The translations under genes and the position numbers were made by a program. Shown piece after piece: positions 1 to 14,971 of a stretch of DNA of 38,304 nucleotides; within the stretch, counting starts at the first letter, position 1, and each line of letters begins with the position of its first letter. The stretch is from a virus: positions 1 through 38,304 of the IMG/VR virus record IMGVR_UViG_3300045993_000326; one strand, written 5' to 3'. Under the pieces are notes generated by a model. The model ran no database searches, had not been told where the DNA came from, and saw only the letters and a program-made list of their open reading frames with translations.

Positions 1-42
1 GTGATACTAGGGAAACCTAACCCTGGAACATTACCCTATCAC
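1..42 (-). ncRNA. Terminal hairpin of structured RNA array
   Basis: Read on the minus strand this stretch starts GTGATAGGG and ends in CCCTAGTATCAC, so six closing pairs (GTGATA/TATCAC) plus GGG/CCC can form. A second internal stem AGGG/CCCT is possible. There is no open reading frame of note. It is the last unit of the RNA array in the window and may continue beyond position 1. Function unknown. Confidence 0.35.
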
Positions 43-85
43 GTACTGACAAATTTGGCTCCCCTATGAAGAATTTAACTTCACT

Positions 86-112
86 GTGCATGGTAATATT
101 AACTCCAAGCAC
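86..112 (-). ncRNA. Hairpin in RNA array
   Basis: On the minus strand the arms GTGCTTGG and CCATGCAC pair with a single T:T mismatch around an 11-nt AT-rich loop. It lies between two other structured units. No T-run follows, so it is not an obvious terminator. It is probably part of a longer processed transcript. Confidence 0.35.
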
Positions 113-116
113 AACA

Positions 117-163
117 TACAGTGAGCCGCCGAGGCCACAAAGGCCTACGTATATATCACTGTA
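117..163 (-). ncRNA. Structured RNA unit closed by an 8-bp stem
   Basis: The minus strand gives a perfect 8-bp closing helix, TACAGTGA with TCACTGTA, and an internal hairpin AGGCC-TTTGT-GGCCT. The unit is 47 nt and lies immediately downstream of the tRNA-like unit at 186-245. No protein-coding potential was seen. It does not resemble a tRNA, and its role is unknown. Confidence 0.4.
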
Positions 164-185
164 TTTCCAGTCCGAGGAATAAAAT

Positions 186-245
186 TGGTGGATCGGAGGG
201 GAGTCGAACCCACCTGCGCCCTAGGAGCATCGCCAGATAAGATCC
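186..245 (-). tRNA. tRNA-like 3' half with encoded CCA (probably degenerate)
   Basis: The minus strand ends in a T-loop-like GGGTTCGACTCCC followed by TCCGATCCACCA, i.e. an acceptor 3' strand, discriminator A and encoded CCA. Upstream only GGATC (241-245) pairs with GATCC, making a 60-nt molecule that is too short for a normal tRNA. No normal D and anticodon arms fit. A small stem GCTC-CTA-GGGC is possible in the middle. It could be a decayed tRNA or a deliberate tRNA-like RNA. The amino-acid identity cannot be assigned. Confidence 0.35.
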
Positions 246-250
246 CGTAT

Positions 251-326
251 TGGTGGAATCTACGGGAATCGAACCCGCCTATACAGCCGTTGCGACCCAA
301 AATAGGTGCCAACCACGGGATTTGCC
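251..326 (-). tRNA. tRNA-like gene with T-arm and CCA
   Basis: On the minus strand a good T arm (GCGGG-TTCGATT-CCCGT) is followed by AGATTCC, A and CCA, the standard 3' end. Counting 76 nt upstream reaches GGCAAATC, which would pair with GATTCC only if two bases bulge. A D-loop-like GTGGTTGG is present, but no 5-bp anticodon stem with a 7-nt loop closes by eye. I call it tRNA-like and do not assign an anticodon. An unusual or degenerate tRNA is equally possible. Confidence 0.4.
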
Positions 327-367
327 TGTTGGCTTTGCAGCGTCGTCTTTTATCTGACTTGCAAAAT

Positions 368-480
368 TGGTGGACCCCTGTTTCTATGCCCTGGGCCCGT
401 TGATAGAGTATCTACTATCAGCATTGCAAATGATCTTAAGAACTTTTCAGTTCAACCTGCACGGTTAACGTGTCGATGAC
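368..480 (-). ncRNA. Structured RNA with CCACCA end
   Basis: The minus strand holds several short hairpins: CGAT-GTC-ATCG, CACG-TTAAC-CGTG, GAACT-GAAA-AGTTC (a GNRA-type loop) and TGATAG/CTATCA. It ends GGGGTCCACCA, the same CCACCA end as the next two units, but has no TTCGA T-loop. No reading frame was found. It looks like a processed RNA in the array. Exact ends are uncertain. Confidence 0.35.
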
Positions 481-488
481 ATCGTAAT

Positions 489-598
489 CATTTTAGAGTA
501 CACTACACAGGATTTGAACCTGTACAACCCGGCTATGGTAGGCACGAGGCTATCACCACTATATCTGCGTGTACGGCGCATTGATGCACTCTAAAATG
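489..598 (-). tRNA. tRNA-like RNA unit with long closing helix and T-arm
   Basis: On the minus strand CATTTTAGAGTGCA and TGTACTCTAAAATG form a near-continuous 14-bp closing helix. Inside is a perfect T-arm (ACAGG-TTCAAAT-CCTGT) and a D-loop-like AGTGGTGATA. An inner pair GTACAC/GTGTAC would define a 77-nt molecule. However, no anticodon stem forms and three extra bases lie between T-arm and acceptor. It is therefore tRNA-like but not a clean cloverleaf, and no anticodon is assigned. Confidence 0.4.
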
Positions 599-600
599 AC

Positions 601-700
601 CATTTTGAAGGATACAAAGGATTCGAACCTAAGACTACAGCACCAGAGTTAACTGGATGGCCTCCCAACTTGCCATTACCTGCGAGTACCCTTTAAAATG
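601..700 (-). tRNA. tRNA-like RNA unit with D-, anticodon- and T-like arms
   Basis: The minus strand is closed by CATTTT.AAGGGTAC with GTATCCTT.AAAATG (one A:C mismatch). A 7-bp acceptor AGGGTAC/GTATCCT lies inside. A D-arm-like hairpin (ATGGC, loop AAGTTGGGAG, GCCAT) and a hairpin CCAG-TTAACT-CTGG follow, then AGGTTCGAATCCT as a T-loop. Departures from a tRNA are ten bases between acceptor and D-arm, a 6-nt anticodon loop and only three good T-stem pairs. This is the most tRNA-like unit of the array, but decoding ability is doubtful. Confidence 0.45.
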
Positions 701-742
701 ACGTCTTCCTCTGCTTGAACTACCAATGCACAATCAGACAAT

Positions 743-825
743 CATTTTGAAATACTTTAGCAATACTGGCAGTGGACGAGCAATCAAATCCCGCGCTTAC
801 GTTCAAACCAAAATACTTCAAAATG
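743..825 (-). ncRNA. Structured RNA unit closed by a 13-bp helix
   Basis: CATTTTGAAGTAT and GTATTTCAAAATG on the minus strand pair without a break (two G:T wobbles), bracketing about 57 nt. The enclosed sequence has no TTCGA T-loop and no evident anticodon arm. It shares the CATTTT...AAAATG bracket with its neighbours at 489-598 and 601-700. The 42 nt between this unit and 700 can form a GTCT/AGAC-closed hairpin. Confidence 0.4.
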
Positions 826-898
826 ACTCCTTACACCCGCTTGTAGCGACTGTAATCTCCCGATTGAGTGTGTAAAAACATCACCAATGTAAGGAATC
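825..898 (-). ncRNA. Compact three-hairpin RNA closed by an 11-bp helix
   Basis: The minus strand GATTCCTTACA pairs with TGTAAGGAGTC over 11 bp (one wobble). Inside are three small hairpins, TGT-TTTT-ACA, AATC-GGGA-GATT (GNRA-type loop) and CGCT-ACA-AGCG, in the order expected of tRNA D, anticodon and T arms but all shortened. It is the first unit after promoter P1. I see no known family; its shape is a miniature cloverleaf. Confidence 0.45.
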
Positions 899-908
899 TT
901 GTCTACAT

Positions 909-947
909 ATTGTTAAGGAACTACACAAACAAATGCGATGATCTGTT
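909..947 (-). promoter_or_regulatory. RNA leader with 12-nt motif and boxA-like element
   Basis: Downstream of P1 the minus strand has AACAGATCATCG (947-936), then 14 nt, then GTTCCTTAACAAT (921-909). The second element resembles the bacterial rRNA-leader boxA (consensus near GCTCTTTAACA), the binding site for NusB/S10 antitermination. The same pair with nearly the same spacing follows P2. This suggests antitermination for a non-coding, structured transcript. Confidence 0.5.
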
Positions 948-957
948 TGAAAGATTA

Positions 958-986
958 ATTATAACACAATTTGCATTATGTGTAAA
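958..986 (-). promoter_or_regulatory. Promoter P1 (sigma70 type) driving the RNA array
   Basis: Minus-strand -35 TTTACA (986-981), 17-bp spacer, -10 TATAAT (963-958). The -35 sits in the extended context TAATTTACACATAATG shared by the promoter family of this window. There is no gene downstream, only the structured RNA units, so it should produce stable RNA. Confidence 0.85.
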
Positions 987-1006
987 TTATTTCTTTAGAG
1001 AGTAAT

Positions 1007-1099
1007 TGTTAGGAAGCCTGCGCACATTACACACCTCACTCTTTGGGATTTTATACCCAGAGCTACCATACTCACCTTAGGGTGAGTCAGAACCTAACA
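1007..1099 (-). ncRNA. Structured RNA under promoter P2
   Basis: The minus strand closes with TGTTAGG/CCTAACA (7 bp). It contains a strong hairpin ACTCACC-CTAA-GGTGAGT and a second one built on TGGG/CCCA with flanking CTC/GAG. It is 93 nt with no reading frame. Its size and 7-bp end stem recall a class II tRNA, but no T-loop is present. It lies between P2's boxA-like leader and P1. Confidence 0.45.
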
Positions 1100-1104
1100 A
1101 CAAC

Positions 1105-1142
1105 TTTTTAAAGAACCGATCCAAGAGATACGATGATCTGTT
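1105..1142 (-). promoter_or_regulatory. RNA leader with 12-nt motif and boxA-like element (second copy)
   Basis: After P2 the minus strand shows AACAGATCATCG (1142-1131), 13 nt, then GGTTCTTTAAAAA (1117-1105), a close match to boxA. It is the second copy of the leader found after P1, and both stand directly before structured RNA. Confidence 0.5.
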
Positions 1143-1153
1143 GGTATGGAATG

Positions 1154-1199: not shown

Positions 1200-1226
1200 A
1201 AAAAGGCCCTCTGTGGGAGGGCCTTT
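1200..1226 (-). terminator. Intrinsic terminator of the accessory operon
   Basis: On the minus strand AAAGGCCCTC-CCACA-GAGGGCCTTT is a perfect 10-bp GC-rich stem followed by two more T residues (five in all with the arm). It stands at the end of the gene run coming from 3078 and before P2. The plus-strand reading has only a short T-run. Confidence 0.85.
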
Positions 1227-3203: not shown

Positions 3204-3449
3204 TTATACTATACCAACAATTACTTTCAACTTCCAAACCGTAAGACAATAGATTTTCAGTCTATCAACGGTTTCTGTAGTATGGATAGAAAACCAAAAA
3301 GTCTGCAGTTTATCATCTACAAGTTGAGCCCAACAATCTTCGGCCCAGATCCATTCACCCATCAACTTACCAATTTTGAACTCGTGAGATGGATTTGAGC
3401 ACTTCTTCAAATCATAATGTAGACGAAGTTCGTCTTTAGTTAAATTCAT
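3204..3449 (-). CDS. Hypothetical protein, 81 aa
   Basis: ATG 3449 overlaps the stop of the RNA ligase gene by four bases, so it is probably co-translated. Tryptophan-rich (GEWIWAEDCWAQ, TFWFS). No family recognised. Confidence 0.75.
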   Translation of the reverse strand: MNLTKDELRLHYDLKKCSNPSHEFKIGKLMGEWIWAEDCWAQLVDDKLQTFWFSIHTTETVDRLKIYCLTVWKLKVIVGIV

Positions 3450-4492
3450 TCCTTAACCTTTTCAAGATACTTGTTACTAACTGCTTTAAATGAAATGCGA
3501 CGATCTGAGTTTGCCTTAAAGACAAGACCTTCACGTGGGCATCCAATCAACCCAAGCACAGACTCACCATCAGCCTTAGTTAGCAATGAGTCACATGTTT
3601 GGCCAGTCAACTTTGCTGCACGTTCAAGCACAGGTGTATCAGTCAGCCCAAGCAAACTTGTCCAAAATCTTCGTTCAACTGGATTAAAGTATTCAAACCG
3701 ATCAATGTCAAAAATATCAAACACGAAGAACATGTGCTTGGTCAAGTTGTAAATGTTGCCTTGGATACCAGGGCCGCACAGTTCACCTTGAATAGCAACA
3801 TTTTTGCCTTGTACTTCCAGTTTGTGCTTCAGTTCAAGCTCAATCGCCATCTTCCAGAATGTGTTGTCCTCAGATTCTTTCAGATCCAAGTTGCGTGAGC
3901 AGACACCAAAGTCTTCATCGCGCTTGTACACAGTCATTGAAGAGCCTTCGCACTTCTCTGTGACTTCCCATGTTTGGTGTTCAAAATGTTCTTCCATATC
4001 ACGGAAGCAGTTTTGCACACGTTCTTGATCAGTCTTGATGATGAACGATGGGAATGATCCACGAGCATCAGCAGAGGTGAACTCAGGTGGCGCTTCCCAC
4101 TTTACAATACCCAACTGTTCGGACACATCTGCACCAATACAACCATCATTGATGGGGAAAATATCCTCAGGCTCCCCAAGCACAGACAGTGGCAGCAACA
4201 GCCCTTGAGACAATTGCTTGCGCAGACGGATTGTGCGAAGCTTTTCACCTTCAACACCAAGATACGTCTTGGGGAAATGTCCCGGCTTTGTTAAGAAAGG
4301 TGCAAGTGTGCTTGGAATGAATGAATCTGGTTCTGCGTACACAACGAGATCACCCACTACATACTTGCCGACTTGGTCAACGATCCACCAGCCATTCACC
4401 CTGTAAGCACAGATCTTGTCTGCATCAGGGATAGCTTTTACTTCTGCAATCTTTTGAATAGACGCCATTTTACGAACATAAACTTCTGTCAT
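3446..4492 (-). CDS. RNA ligase, DRB0094/Rnl5-like
   Basis: An ATP-dependent RNA ligase that would seal 5'-phosphate/3'-hydroxyl nicks through a lysine-AMP intermediate. The nucleotidyltransferase motif I is visible as VTEKCEGSSMTVY (the Lys of EKCEG is the nucleophile), followed by motif-like RNLDLKE, IQGELCGPGIQ, FVFDIF, EGLVFK and a closing ISFKAVS. The N-terminal 150 residues form the OB-like extension typical of the Deinococcus DRB0094 (TIGR02306) type. ATG 4492 is chosen because of AAAGAGG 6 nt before it. Likely role: repair of nicked or cleaved RNA, for example host tRNA cut by defence nucleases. The neighbouring RNA array makes this suggestive. No polynucleotide kinase is seen in the window. 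Confidence 0.92.
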   Translation of the reverse strand: MTEVYVRKMASIQKIAEVKAIPDADKICAYRVNGWWIVDQVGKYVVGDLVVYAEPDSFIPSTLAPFLTKPGHFPKTYLGVEGEKLRTIRLRKQLSQGLLLPLSVLGEPEDIFPINDGCIGADVSEQLGIVKWEAPPEFTSADARGSFPSFIIKTDQERVQNCFRDMEEHFEHQTWEVTEKCEGSSMTVYKRDEDFGVCSRNLDLKESEDNTFWKMAIELELKHKLEVQGKNVAIQGELCGPGIQGNIYNLTKHMFFVFDIFDIDRFEYFNPVERRFWTSLLGLTDTPVLERAAKLTGQTCDSLLTKADGESVLGLIGCPREGLVFKANSDRRISFKAVSNKYLEKVKE

Positions 4493-4503
4493 TTTATACC
4501 TCT

Positions 4504-4596
4504 TTATTTTGTCCAATAAGCATATAGTAAGAATAAGAAAATACCGATTACTTCGATCACAAAGAAAAGCATCAGTAGATCAGTCACCCATCTCAC
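4504..4596 (-). CDS. Single-span membrane peptide, 30 aa (GTG start)
   Basis: GTG 4596 follows AAAGG at a spacing of 6 nt. The product is almost all one helix (LLMLFFVIEVIGIFLFLLYA), and the frame ends just before the RNA ligase ribosome site. Very short, so only moderately supported. Confidence 0.5.
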   Translation of the reverse strand: MRWVTDLLMLFFVIEVIGIFLFLLYAYWTK

Positions 4597-7115: not shown

Positions 7116-7375
7116 GCTTGTACCTCAGCCAGAGTAGTGAAGAGTCGGGCCCGAGCATTCGGAAATTGTTTTTCATATTCTGGATCAGGTTCTCCAAGTT
7201 CGTATAGAGAATTTTGTGTTACAACATAAGCGCCATGTTTACCTAGCACTTTAGATGTAGTTACAAATTTATCTCCGCGGTCACCAACTAATTGTGGCTC
7301 CCTAAGTTCAGGAGCCGTATACGGATCGCTGGAATATGTAATTCCCCAATTTTCTAACTTATATGCTGGTTTCAT
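7112..7375 (-). CDS. Hypothetical protein, 87 aa
   Basis: Directly follows NadR with an ATGA overlap. Contains GITYSSDPYTAPELREPQLVG and KVLGKHGAYVVTQNSLYELG. The two halves look beta-rich. No family recognised. Coupling to nadR makes a shared role possible but unproven. Confidence 0.75.
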   Translation of the reverse strand: MKPAYKLENWGITYSSDPYTAPELREPQLVGDRGDKFVTTSKVLGKHGAYVVTQNSLYELGEPDPEYEKQFPNARARLFTTLAEVQA

Positions 7376-8418
7376 AGTAATTCCTCTTTCACTTTTGCAA
7401 TTCGTTCTTCAAGACTGCCGGTCAGCAGTGTGTATTTCTTACCTTCAAGTTCTTTGAGATAAAACTCGTGCCCTTTGTTCCGGAACTTTTCATCTTGCCG
7501 AGTTCCGTCCTGCACCATTGGAAAGTCTGGGGCACAAAGGAAAATTTTGTAGTAGGAATTTTCTGCCTTCCACACTGAGCCCCACAATGAAGCAGAAACT
7601 CTGCCAAACCATTGTTCAGAATAAAACTGAGTCGTCAGTGGTGAAGTATCACAGTACAAGAATTCATCCATTCTGAGTCCAGCAGCACGAGAAGCTTCAA
7701 CTTCAAGTTGACCTGATCCAATACGAGCCATGTCTTCGTACCGAAGTTTACCTTCTCGTTTGTCGAACATGAACCGGCCAAATTCCAAAGCAGTATGGCG
7801 TTCATCACCAAGTGCTTTCACCAGAGTTGTTTTGCCAGTTGATTCTGCACCAAGGAAAAGAACCTTACGCACAAAATCTTTTCGTACATACCACGGTACA
7901 AATCTATCCATCATGTGAATCATTGATTCACGGAGTTGTGTGCCAGAAATTGGATGCTCAATACGATCTTTATCCACCATCACATGCTGTACATGAACTG
8001 GATTTAAAAATCTCGCTGTAAAGTAAAGCGATAGATAATCGGCAAAACCTTGACCATAATCTTCCGAAGTAAAGACGGCATCAACAGTTGTTCCAAATCT
8101 ATTTAGAAGCTGCCCTGCACAAAATTCCCTATGTACATCTTCCGGTGAATCATCTTTTACACCAAGAATGTCTGCTTGCTGATCAAGAACTTCGACGGTA
8201 ATGCTGTGCACACGATCCTCGTCGAGAGTATATTTTGTCGCCTGTTCTAACCATTCGCGGCGCTTTTCTGCTCCACAGCCTGGGAAGTTACCCGAGGTGT
8301 AAGATAGGATGATAAGATTTTCACATTGCTCGGCAGCAGTCTCAATGACCTTGATGTGCCCATCGTGCAGTGGGCAGAACTTGCCCACAACTAAACCGGT
8401 TACGAATTTCTTTGCCAT
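7372..8418 (-). CDS. nadR: NadR-like NMN adenylyltransferase / ribosylnicotinamide kinase
   Basis: A two-domain NAD-salvage enzyme of 348 residues. The N-terminal nucleotidyltransferase has GKFCPLHDGH at 12-21 (the HxGH site) and ISGTQLRES at about 157-165, as in NMN adenylyltransferases. The C-terminal kinase has the P-loop GAESTGKTT at 190-198 and a DTSPLTTQFY segment as in NadR ribosylnicotinamide kinases. Together they would convert nicotinamide riboside to NMN and then NAD. ATG 8418 is used; an in-frame ATG lies four codons upstream. No N-terminal DNA-binding domain is present, unlike the enterobacterial repressor form. The window also encodes PnuC, the matching transporter. Confidence 0.92.
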   Translation of the reverse strand: MAKKFVTGLVVGKFCPLHDGHIKVIETAAEQCENLIILSYTSGNFPGCGAEKRREWLEQATKYTLDEDRVHSITVEVLDQQADILGVKDDSPEDVHREFCAGQLLNRFGTTVDAVFTSEDYGQGFADYLSLYFTARFLNPVHVQHVMVDKDRIEHPISGTQLRESMIHMMDRFVPWYVRKDFVRKVLFLGAESTGKTTLVKALGDERHTALEFGRFMFDKREGKLRYEDMARIGSGQLEVEASRAAGLRMDEFLYCDTSPLTTQFYSEQWFGRVSASLWGSVWKAENSYYKIFLCAPDFPMVQDGTRQDEKFRNKGHEFYLKELEGKKYTLLTGSLEERIAKVKEELL

Positions 8419-8630
8419 AATTTCCACCATGGTTTCTTTTGTTCAAATAGAACTGCTTCTTTACCACACGGACCCGGGCGGCCGAATTCAAGTCTCATGT
8501 AAGAACAAGTTCTATAAGACGTATATCCGGACACTAGATTGACATCATGCAGTGCTTTTTCATGCAGACATTCCGCGGAACCTTCCGGCCACCACGCATA
8601 AAATTTACAGTCTTTACAGAGTTTTACCAT
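8400..8630 (-). CDS. Cys-rich small protein, paralogue of the next gene
   Basis: 76 residues with CKDCKFYAWW ... AECLHE ... RTCSYMRL ... PCGKEA, a likely zinc-binding pattern, and a terminal WWKLW motif. It is a tandem paralogue of the gene at 8624-8839 (same Cys order, same MRL and WWKLW). ATG 8630 is chosen because GGTGGAAATT precedes it. The 3' end overlaps nadR by 19 nt and supplies nadR's ribosome site. Confidence 0.8.
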   Translation of the reverse strand: MVKLCKDCKFYAWWPEGSAECLHEKALHDVNLVSGYTSYRTCSYMRLEFGRPGPCGKEAVLFEQKKPWWKLWQRNS

Positions 8631-9901: not shown

Positions 9902-10206
9902 ACAGCCTCGTAAGTAGCATGAAAGATACTAGGTTTACATAGGTAGAACTCACCGTATGGATCCTTGAAGATGAAATCATCTTCATATGCAATGTGAACT
10001 ACTTGCTTATAATGGTCATCTTCCAATTTGCCGATGTTAGCTAATTTGCCAATATGAGCTTCACCAATAGCACCAATGTGCCGCATTTTATTTGTACTTA
10101 GTAGATATGGAGCACAGAATGCTCTGAGTTCTTCAATTCCTTCTTTAGTATAGACGAACTGAACTGCTTCGATTACTTCTGGCTTCTTACGATATTGCTT
10201 AATCAT
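9898..10206 (-). CDS. Conserved phage protein (IKQYRKKPEVIEAVQF type), 102 aa
   Basis: Begins MIKQYRKKPEVIEAVQF and ends DPYGEFYLCKPSIFHATYE, the hallmark ends of a widespread phage protein of unknown function. The middle segment carries an insertion (GAIGEAHIGKLANIGKLEDD). It overlaps the upstream frame by 8 nt. Confidence 0.8.
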   Translation of the reverse strand: MIKQYRKKPEVIEAVQFVYTKEGIEELRAFCAPYLLSTNKMRHIGAIGEAHIGKLANIGKLEDDHYKQVVHIAYEDDFIFKDPYGEFYLCKPSIFHATYEAV

Positions 10207-11017
10207 TTACTATCCTCATATTACTAAATTCACGGTTAACCTGGCCGTATCCGTTGCAGCGTTCGAGAGATGTTCCATATCTGACAAATGCTTCAAACAG
10301 AGTATCACCTTCTTCGATGCCGGCCGAATATGCCGTTGTGCCGCCTTTCCAGTCACCTTTTTGCCGACCCACTTCTTTATCAAAAGAGAAGTCGACGTGT
10401 TTATAGTATACTGGTTTTCTAATGTACCCAAGCCATTTCATCCAAGATGTACCGTGCCGATACATTGATTCTTCGATGTGGCAAGCGGCAGTGATTTCTT
10501 CTCTGTCAAAGTCATTGAACTTGATCAGTAACTTTGGTACTGCATTTCTAATTTCTTCTAAAGAATCAAAGTTGATGCCACCATTCTTTTTGTCGAAGTA
10601 TCTCTTGAATAAAGTTCCATCTGGATTCAAGTAATCGATGTGAATCCGCCGACGTGTTTTCCATGGGATTTCGAAGCATTTAGAATGGTCGGAATTTTCA
10701 GGATCATCTCTAGACCAAGAACCTGGCTGGATTCCATATCTAATGTGCAAATGATCTTCATATATAGAAAATCCATACTCACGGCAAATATGATTAGTAT
10801 ATCCTGCTTTAGGATTACCCTTGGCCCATTCATATCTTGAAGTATCTACCCAGACAGACTTTGGTTTCAGAATCTGTGGTACTTCGAACCAGAATGAATA
10901 ACCAAAGAATGCTATGTGAAGAACGTTTGGTTTATCTTTGTCAAAGTCATAAGCAGTCTTGAGCGACAGAGCAAAACCCCATTCTTTACTCTTGCTGAAT
11001 TCTTTTAGTTTAAACAT
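10199..11017 (-). CDS. Hypothetical protein, 272 aa
   Basis: Aromatic-rich protein (FFGYSFWFEVPQILKPKSVW) with IPWKTRRRIHIDYLNPDGT and many His/Tyr/Trp positions. This type occurs in other large phages as a conserved hypothetical. No catalytic motif that I can defend. Overlaps at both ends are 8 nt. Confidence 0.8.
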   Translation of the reverse strand: MFKLKEFSKSKEWGFALSLKTAYDFDKDKPNVLHIAFFGYSFWFEVPQILKPKSVWVDTSRYEWAKGNPKAGYTNHICREYGFSIYEDHLHIRYGIQPGSWSRDDPENSDHSKCFEIPWKTRRRIHIDYLNPDGTLFKRYFDKKNGGINFDSLEEIRNAVPKLLIKFNDFDREEITAACHIEESMYRHGTSWMKWLGYIRKPVYYKHVDFSFDKEVGRQKGDWKGGTTAYSAGIEEGDTLFEAFVRYGTSLERCNGYGQVNREFSNMRIVND

Positions 11018-14178: not shown

Positions 14179-14381
14179 TATAGTTTCTCCAATTTTTCTT
14201 TGGCAATTGCAAGATAAGTTTCTGCAACGCGAATTTTGTCAAGGCAACGTTCTTTGGAAGAGACACCGTTCCATGCAGCCAACACTGCTGCTGCCTCTTT
14301 CATATTTTCGATGGCATCACCAATGATGGGTCCTTGTATGGAGTTTGGCATTGGTGGCACAGGCGGATATTTCCAAGACAT
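14178..14381 (-). CDS. Hypothetical protein, 67 aa
   Basis: Proline-rich start (KYPPVPPMPNS) then a helical part (ENMKEAAAVLAAW, AETYLAIAKEKLEKL). Overlaps pnuC by TAATG, so it is translated after it. No family recognised. Confidence 0.75.
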   Translation of the reverse strand: MSWKYPPVPPMPNSIQGPIIGDAIENMKEAAAVLAAWNGVSSKERCLDKIRVAETYLAIAKEKLEKL

Positions 14382-14971
14382 TATTGTTTCTCCATTAATT
14401 TCTTCCAGTTGAAATATGACACTGCTGCATTGATCCAGAAGAATCCATACAGCACAGAAGTCAGGTATAGTTCACGACTCCAGAACAGTGGGACAGACAG
14501 TGTATTTACAATCAGCCATACTTTCCAAGTCTGAATACTTCGTCCCATTAGTAGCAATTGTGCGACTACAGAGAACGCCAATACAGTAGAATCGATCCAG
14601 GGCGCATAAGCATTTGTGAAGGTATGTAGCAACCAACCGTATGTTAGAGCGACTGCTACAGCGATCCCAAGCATTATGCTAAATGTTTTACCATTTACAT
14701 TTATGATGGGAGTTGGTTTATCTACTTTATAGATAATCTTGTTTGCATTCCATCCAATCCACCCCAAAATACCGGTGACAAAGAAAAATATTTGAAGTGT
14801 CACATCAGCATATAGCTGCACATTATAGAACATGATGCCGAAAAGCACACAGCCGACAAGTCCAGTCCACCAGGTGTGTATTGAATTTCGTCCTGCAAGT
14901 ACGATGCAAGCGATAGTGAAAACGTTTGCCCAAAGTTCGAGCGGCGTCCAAGTAAACCAGTTCATAATCAT
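14381..14971 (-). CDS. pnuC: PnuC-like nicotinamide riboside transporter
   Basis: An inner-membrane transporter that would bring nicotinamide riboside into the cell. 196 residues with about six or seven hydrophobic helices. The typical PnuC segment WWTGLVGCVLFGIMFYNVQL followed by YADVTLQ and GWIGWNA is visible, as is a WLIVNTLSVPLFW segment near the end, matching PnuC's conserved Trp/Asn substrate site. ATG 14971 overlaps the preceding stop (ATGA). Its partner enzyme NadR is encoded about 6 kb further on the same strand. Confidence 0.9.
   Translation of the reverse strand: MIMNWFTWTPLELWANVFTIACIVLAGRNSIHTWWTGLVGCVLFGIMFYNVQLYADVTLQIFFFVTGILGWIGWNANKIIYKVDKPTPIINVNGKTFSIMLGIAVAVALTYGWLLHTFTNAYAPWIDSTVLAFSVVAQLLLMGRSIQTWKVWLIVNTLSVPLFWSRELYLTSVLYGFFWINAAVSYFNWKKLMEKQ

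Follow-up and report, generated by a model that had tools for sequence, protein, structure and literature searches.

A candidate stable-RNA operon with an rRNA-type leader and long closing helices in a fragment of a T4-like phage

Results

An array of structured RNAs at the end of a phage fragment

We analysed a 38,304-nt stretch of viral DNA (the window), a 38.3-kb virus record, and read the minus strand of its positions 1-1200, on balance, as the promoter-proximal part of a stable-RNA operon of the phage, in which tRNA-like, non-decoding units with long closing helices follow an rRNA-type leader. The array itself is real and conserved, and probably functional; judged from the DNA, it combines an operon layout, a leader, helices that are conserved and compensated, and tips that have been replaced. 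T4 and T5 carry unexplained stable RNAs beside their tRNA genes, and the phage group described here makes such a function directly testable, because its units are numerous, their expression signal is clear and nature has itself run the experiment of swapping tips within kept frames. No papers describing arrays of this kind were found in the literature searched.

This fragment belongs to a T4-like phage: the window encodes T4-like myovirus families for the Gp23 capsid, the capsid-assembly scaffold and the prohead protease, and further genes for a portal, a primase, a ribonucleotide reductase and a UvsW-type helicase. All features of the array lie on the minus strand (Table 1), and the record ends at position 1, inside the RNA array. 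The first-pass annotation had held that the closed units of this region are not normal tRNAs, and our searches agreed with it. ARAGORN found no tRNA gene in the whole window, nor did Rfam at gathering score, and the tRNA family (RF00005) gave no Rfam match in the window even at E 5; ordinary tRNAs were thus ruled out. The tmRNA families RF00023 and RF04321 reached 14.2 and 22.2 bits, where the gathering score is 47, so the array does not belong to them. A blastn search of positions 1-1300 against the 50,697 phage records of INPHARED returned no match at E 1e-5, to the RNAs of T4 or T5 or to any other record, and kinship with the T4 and T5 RNAs is therefore one of layout only.

Table 1. Positions of promoters, leaders and RNA units in the window, with two tRNAs of related phages.
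Feature	Position	Strand	Description
Terminator-like hairpin	1200..1226	-	AAAGGCCCTC-CCACA-GAGGGCCTTT; upstream of the array promoters; read directly
Promoter P1	1154..1182	-	TTTACA-17-TATAAT; consensus scan, 11/12
P1 leader	1105..1144	-	boxB-like hairpin CCAA...TTGG (1144-1121); boxA-like TTCTTTAAAAA (1115-1105)
P1 structured unit	1006..1100	-	closed by TTGTTAGG/CCTAACAA; z -3.5
Promoter P2	958..986	-	TTTACA-17-TATAAT, TG before the -10; consensus scan
P2 leader	900..948	-	boxB-like hairpin AAACA...TGTTT (948-927); boxA-like TTCCTTAACAATATGTAGACA from 920
Leader unit	825..898	-	13-bp closing helix GATTCCTTACATT/GGTGTAAGGAGTC; z -3.6
Bracketed unit F1	740..828	-	22-bp closing helix; z -3.6; frame conserved, 28-nt centre replaced
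Short inter-unit hairpin	703..739	-	GTCT...AGAC; conserved in G001
Bracketed tRNA-like unit F4	601..700	-	z only -1.8; sequence conserved in G014
Bracketed tRNA-like unit F3	485..602	-	19-bp closing helix; z -4.8
Possible pseudo-tRNA	366..486	-	stretch ending GGGGTCCACCA; z -1.5
Possible pseudo-tRNA	251..326	-	CCACCA end; T-arm GCGGG-TTCGATT-CCCGT; poor closing stem; z +0.3
T-arm with CCACCA end	185..245	-	5-bp GGATC/GATCC stem; z +0.6
9-bp hairpin	110..165	-	ATACAGTGA...TCACTGTAT; inside a stretch matching G001; z -4.3
Promoters without boxA	21336, 19559, 19279, 18017, 6742, 5455	-	others in L100-L107
Ordinary tRNA with extended closing helix	L103:5349-5250		in G002
Ordinary tRNA with extended closing helix	L104:7076-7174		in G014

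Array promoters share a leader of the rRNA type

P1 and P2 are predicted strong sigma-70 promoters. The leader of E. coli rrnB, read from the genome, has its elements in the same order, with a boxA of CTCTTTAACAATTTATCAGACA as against TTCCTTAACAATATGTAGACA in the window, and all parts of the rrn-type layout (promoter, boxB hairpin, boxA, structured RNA) are present here. Across the window and the analysed parts of two relatives, G001 and G002, we counted 38 promoters of the TTTACA-17-TATAAT type. A boxA followed all 8 copies that stand at arrays and none of the 30 others. These 30 near-identical promoters (TTTACACATA...TATAAT) are scattered over the phage genomes, and most of them lead through a short leader into an AAAGGA-type ribosome site. 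A third relative, G014, has the boxA as well, but behind a different promoter. The exact boxA motif of the phage leader occurred in no genome of an 84,980-species collection. The terminator-like hairpin upstream of the array promoters is absent from the consensus-scan listing, and a hairpin like it occupies the corresponding place in G001 and G002.

In rRNA operons, Nus factors are brought in by boxA, which counteracts Rho (PMC10250234, PMC4807359), and by analogy the phage boxA leader may do the same. The likeness to a bacterial rRNA operon extends from promoter, hairpin and boxA to an RNA closed by long helices (PMC10250234), but the leader in the window drives phage tRNA or tRNA-like RNAs rather than rRNA, and Nus binding to it is only putative. 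An rRNA-type leader on a phage RNA operon offers a clean, testable case in which a virus has put a signal from ribosomal-RNA genes to work on non-coding RNAs of its own.

Long closing helices and folding of the units

The minus strand of 1-1105 holds closing helices of 22 and 19 bp. Helices of at least 14 bp occurred twice in the 1.1-kb array, compared with 0.1 in shuffles, and once in 10.4 kb of the window's coding sequence. Expressed per 10 kb of array, such helices numbered 18 in the window, 11 in G001, 9.5 in G002 and 44 in G014, while the tRNA regions of T4, T5, KVP40 and an Enterobacter phage gave 0-4. The folding z-scores in Table 1 were calculated against dinucleotide shuffles over intervals closely matching the bounds of the units, and by this measure the four large units at 1100-1006, 898-825, 828-740 and 602-485 are clearly beyond chance.

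The first-pass annotation had proposed a series of closed minus-strand units. These four stand, the unit at 700-601 is weaker, and those at 486-366, 326-251 and 245-186 are not borne out as structured, since they fold no better, or hardly better, than the shuffles. Its range of 6-15 bp for the closing helices accommodates the leader unit at 898-825 and is exceeded at 828-740 and 602-485. The CATTTT...AAAATG bracket, which it had assigned to four units, is found on three in the window (825-743, 700-601 and 598-489), with more in the relatives. The hairpin at 165-110 is additional to the units described there.

The three CCACCA-ended stretches differ from the main units and may be decayed tRNAs. 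No T-arm was found in 366..486. A match to G001 covers the 3' half of 185..245 and its downstream flank, whereas the 5' half is different there. A decayed tRNA cluster, its remnants losing their arms, had been one of the two readings offered earlier for the whole region. It gives a fair description of these three units, which have a T-arm and/or CCACCA and fold like shuffles, and it would explain the missing anticodon arms. It does not describe the main units, with their compensated helices, frames conserved across phages and promoters with a dedicated leader. Decay would not yield helices of 19-22 bp and is already contradicted for 828-740 and 602-485. As an account of the array we consider it improbable.

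The same stretches could in principle belong to a permuted or split tRNA, in which the 3' half of 326-251 would join the 5' end of 245-186 in one circularly permuted molecule. A 7-bp pairing, AGATTCC/GGGATCT, does run across the CCA, and Rfam matches permuted tmRNA weakly (E 0.04). However, no D-arm or anticodon arm follows, the score is far below the gathering threshold, and the AGATTCC/GGGATCT pairing is a simple local hairpin, so that such a tRNA is extremely unlikely here.

Related phages keep the frames and replace the tips

The relatives G001, G002 and G014 were found with a pattern for the bracketed T-arm unit and a helicase search; G001 is 192 kb long and its helicase is 93% identical to that of the window. 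A leader-unit pattern added G017, whose array segment is the same as that of G002. Apart from G001, G014 and G017, the pattern scans for further arrays gave mostly single, probably chance matches. The array of the relatives leads into ordinary tRNA genes: G001 has 24 in its L100 stretch, G002 has 29 in its L103 stretch and G014 has 22 within its first 40 kb. Since these arrays run on into tRNA genes, the window contains the promoter-proximal end of a tRNA/non-coding RNA operon that has been cut by the contig. It is through these homologous arrays that the units can be placed in a phage tRNA operon, the window being truncated before the tRNAs.

The P1 unit is about 190 nt long in the relatives, and its inner part is missing in the window. 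F1 has near-identical flanks in the window, G001 and G014, around centres of 28-32 nt that are wholly different. In the window and G014 it comes after the leader unit, but in G001 F2 precedes it; F4 and then F3 come in the same order in the window and G014. The differing unit order between phages looks like cassette shuffling. In F4 the acceptor GGGTAC/GTATCC runs on into the bracket, the D-loop is AAGTTGGGAG and the T-loop TTCGAAT, and the anticodon position is replaced, by 6 nt in the window and by an 18-nt hairpin in G014. Frames are likewise kept and tips replaced in F2 and F8 when G001 is compared with G014. F6 is the exception, with changing stems and kept loop residues.

F3 provided the clearest compensation. 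Inside its closing helix are a 4-bp hairpin with a 7-nt loop, a variable hairpin and a canonical 5-bp T-arm with a TTCAAAT loop. Across the window, G014 and G002, all paired cells of F3 are kept and 4 pairs are changed on both sides, which preserves the closing helix and the T-arm (598-489). In a tRNA-His-like unit of the relatives no stem is lost, 7 pairs being compensated, and between G001 and G002 its T-loop is the sole differing place. Covariation in related phages had been named as a check on the first reading and is present, in samples of 2-4 sequences per unit that give strong, supportive examples rather than statistical proof. The tRNA mimics, the other reading offered at first, persist in a narrower form: a T-arm without a decoding anticodon loop is found in 598-489 and 700-601, which fit a non-decoding tRNA-like class with precedents in T4, T5 and KVP40, and does not extend to the bracketed units that have no T-arm.

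Wholesale replacement of 22-32-nt centres inside near-identical frames would also be expected of guide or antisense small RNAs, in which the centres are interchangeable target-recognition segments on a fixed scaffold. The centre of F1 in the window had no exact match in the genome collection (as a 22-mer) or the viral collection (as a 20-mer), the centres match the phage DNA examined only at scattered stretches of 12-13 nt, the chance level, and several of them form hairpins. This makes a guide function very unlikely.

The main rival to a function of the units themselves is that they serve as processing or insulating spacers, whose helices guide the cleavage and folding of a polycistronic tRNA precursor while their insides are free to vary. 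Kept helices with replaced insides, and brackets common to units with unrelated insides, are what this would produce. Ordinary tRNA-Asn and tRNA-His genes of the relatives, too, lie within extended acceptor helices (about 13-20 bp), which suggests a general processing helix. Against the spacers stand insides that are themselves conserved or compensated (the T-arm and small hairpin of F3, the D- and T-loops of F4), and the units in the window precede any tRNA, so that no tRNA there needs separating. We regard spacers as unlikely, although less so than decay or guides.

Two observations concern the tRNA genes of the relatives. A GIY-YIG-like homing endonuclease frame, read by eye, lies inside the tRNA array of G002 (L103:6940-6280, minus strand); the tRNA arrays of T4 and T5 likewise contain homing endonucleases. 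In G001, L100:12060-12143 is called by ARAGORN as a Glu(UUC) tRNA, with a Leu-like body and a long variable region, and is possibly a chimera.

Discussion

If the array is a stable-RNA operon, host polymerase would start at P1 and P2, each feeding a boxB-boxA leader that would protect it from termination by Rho along an extended, untranslated array. In the RNA made, the structured units would come first and then, as in the relatives, ordinary tRNAs. The long helix that closes each main unit probably serves in processing, much as the leader-trailer helices of rRNA do; such helices would be cut or trimmed, with RNase III as the natural candidate, and stable RNAs released. We infer antitermination, processing and RNA stability for the array transcripts, and the mature products would most likely be stable RNAs of the kind of T4 species 1 and 2 and T5 RNA1-3. 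Several units are tRNA-like, with a T-arm, an acceptor-like helix and sometimes a canonical D-loop, and lacking an anticodon loop they cannot decode.

What such RNAs might do is a matter of conjecture. We tentatively favour a role as decoys or competitors for host tRNA-handling factors, whether defence nucleases or processing or modification enzymes, because the units retain T-arm and acceptor-like features, their anticodon positions have given way to other sequence and their tips change fast, which could be the mark of an arms race. A more specific version, in which shuffled bracketed RNA cassettes behind the rRNA-type leader use fixed helices and tRNA-like arms to hold swappable tips, differing by phage, against host RNA-targeting defences, is doubtful. 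The counter-defence genes near the array (an Rnl5-like ligase and Acb3) may be taken as context for a decoy role, not as proof.

The ligase, of the Naegleria Rnl5 type, is encoded on the minus strand at 3446-4513, about 2.4 kb from the array; its closest solved structures are 5cot and 6vt1, and it is a possible RNA repair enzyme. Also on the minus strand are the anti-CBASS protein Acb3 (10199-11017), a NadR-like protein with cytidylyltransferase-like and AAA_28 domains (7372-8430) and an NMN transporter (14381-14971), and the last three suggest counter-defence and NAD rebuilding.

Small RNAs among phage tRNA genes have precedents. Among the tRNA genes of T5 the annotation lists RNA1, RNA2, RNA3 and five more stable RNAs of unknown function, RNA1-3 being annotated as tRNA-like or stable RNA. 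RNA2 resembles the units in the window in having a closing helix with an adjoining T-arm, and inner hairpins instead of an anticodon arm, but its closing helix is 8 bp long, and 14-bp closers are few in the T5 region. T4 species 1 and 2 (rnaC and rnaD), annotated as stable RNAs of unknown function, lie within the tRNA cluster of T4. In rnaC a T-arm is combined with two hairpins, an anticodon is lacking and the closing stem is short; the T4 stretch examined showed no boxA leader at its tRNA cluster. In KVP40, tRNA-Pseudo-3/4/5 have acceptor, D- and T-arms with hairpins in place of the anticodon region; they are annotated as pseudo-tRNAs only, and no shared long bracket helices were seen among them.

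New relative to the stable RNAs of T4 and T5 are the rrn-like leader, the shared long closing helices and the replaced tips. Family alignments show that the loops of T4 rnaC are conserved across phages and its stems vary, and that T5 RNA1 homologues, unlike the units in the window, keep the loop and vary the stem; tip replacement as a general trait was thereby ruled out. A tRNA-Leu-like RNA of G014 (L104:14843-14960) and the hairpin of T5 RNA1 share the motif GGAACATC, a possible link between the two groups.

Two further observations were made in these genomes. In G014, L104:10179-13561, adjoining the RNA array, encodes two multihaem c-type cytochromes (Cytochrom_CIII / Cytochrome_C7 families), together with a membrane protein and a TPR protein whose C-terminus is outer-membrane-like, possibly an electron-transfer set in a phage. 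In T4 species 1 RNA (L150:2909-3047), the conserved loop CGUCAA is complementary, across the relatives that were aligned, to the conserved UUGACG of the other hairpin, so that a loop-loop contact is possible.
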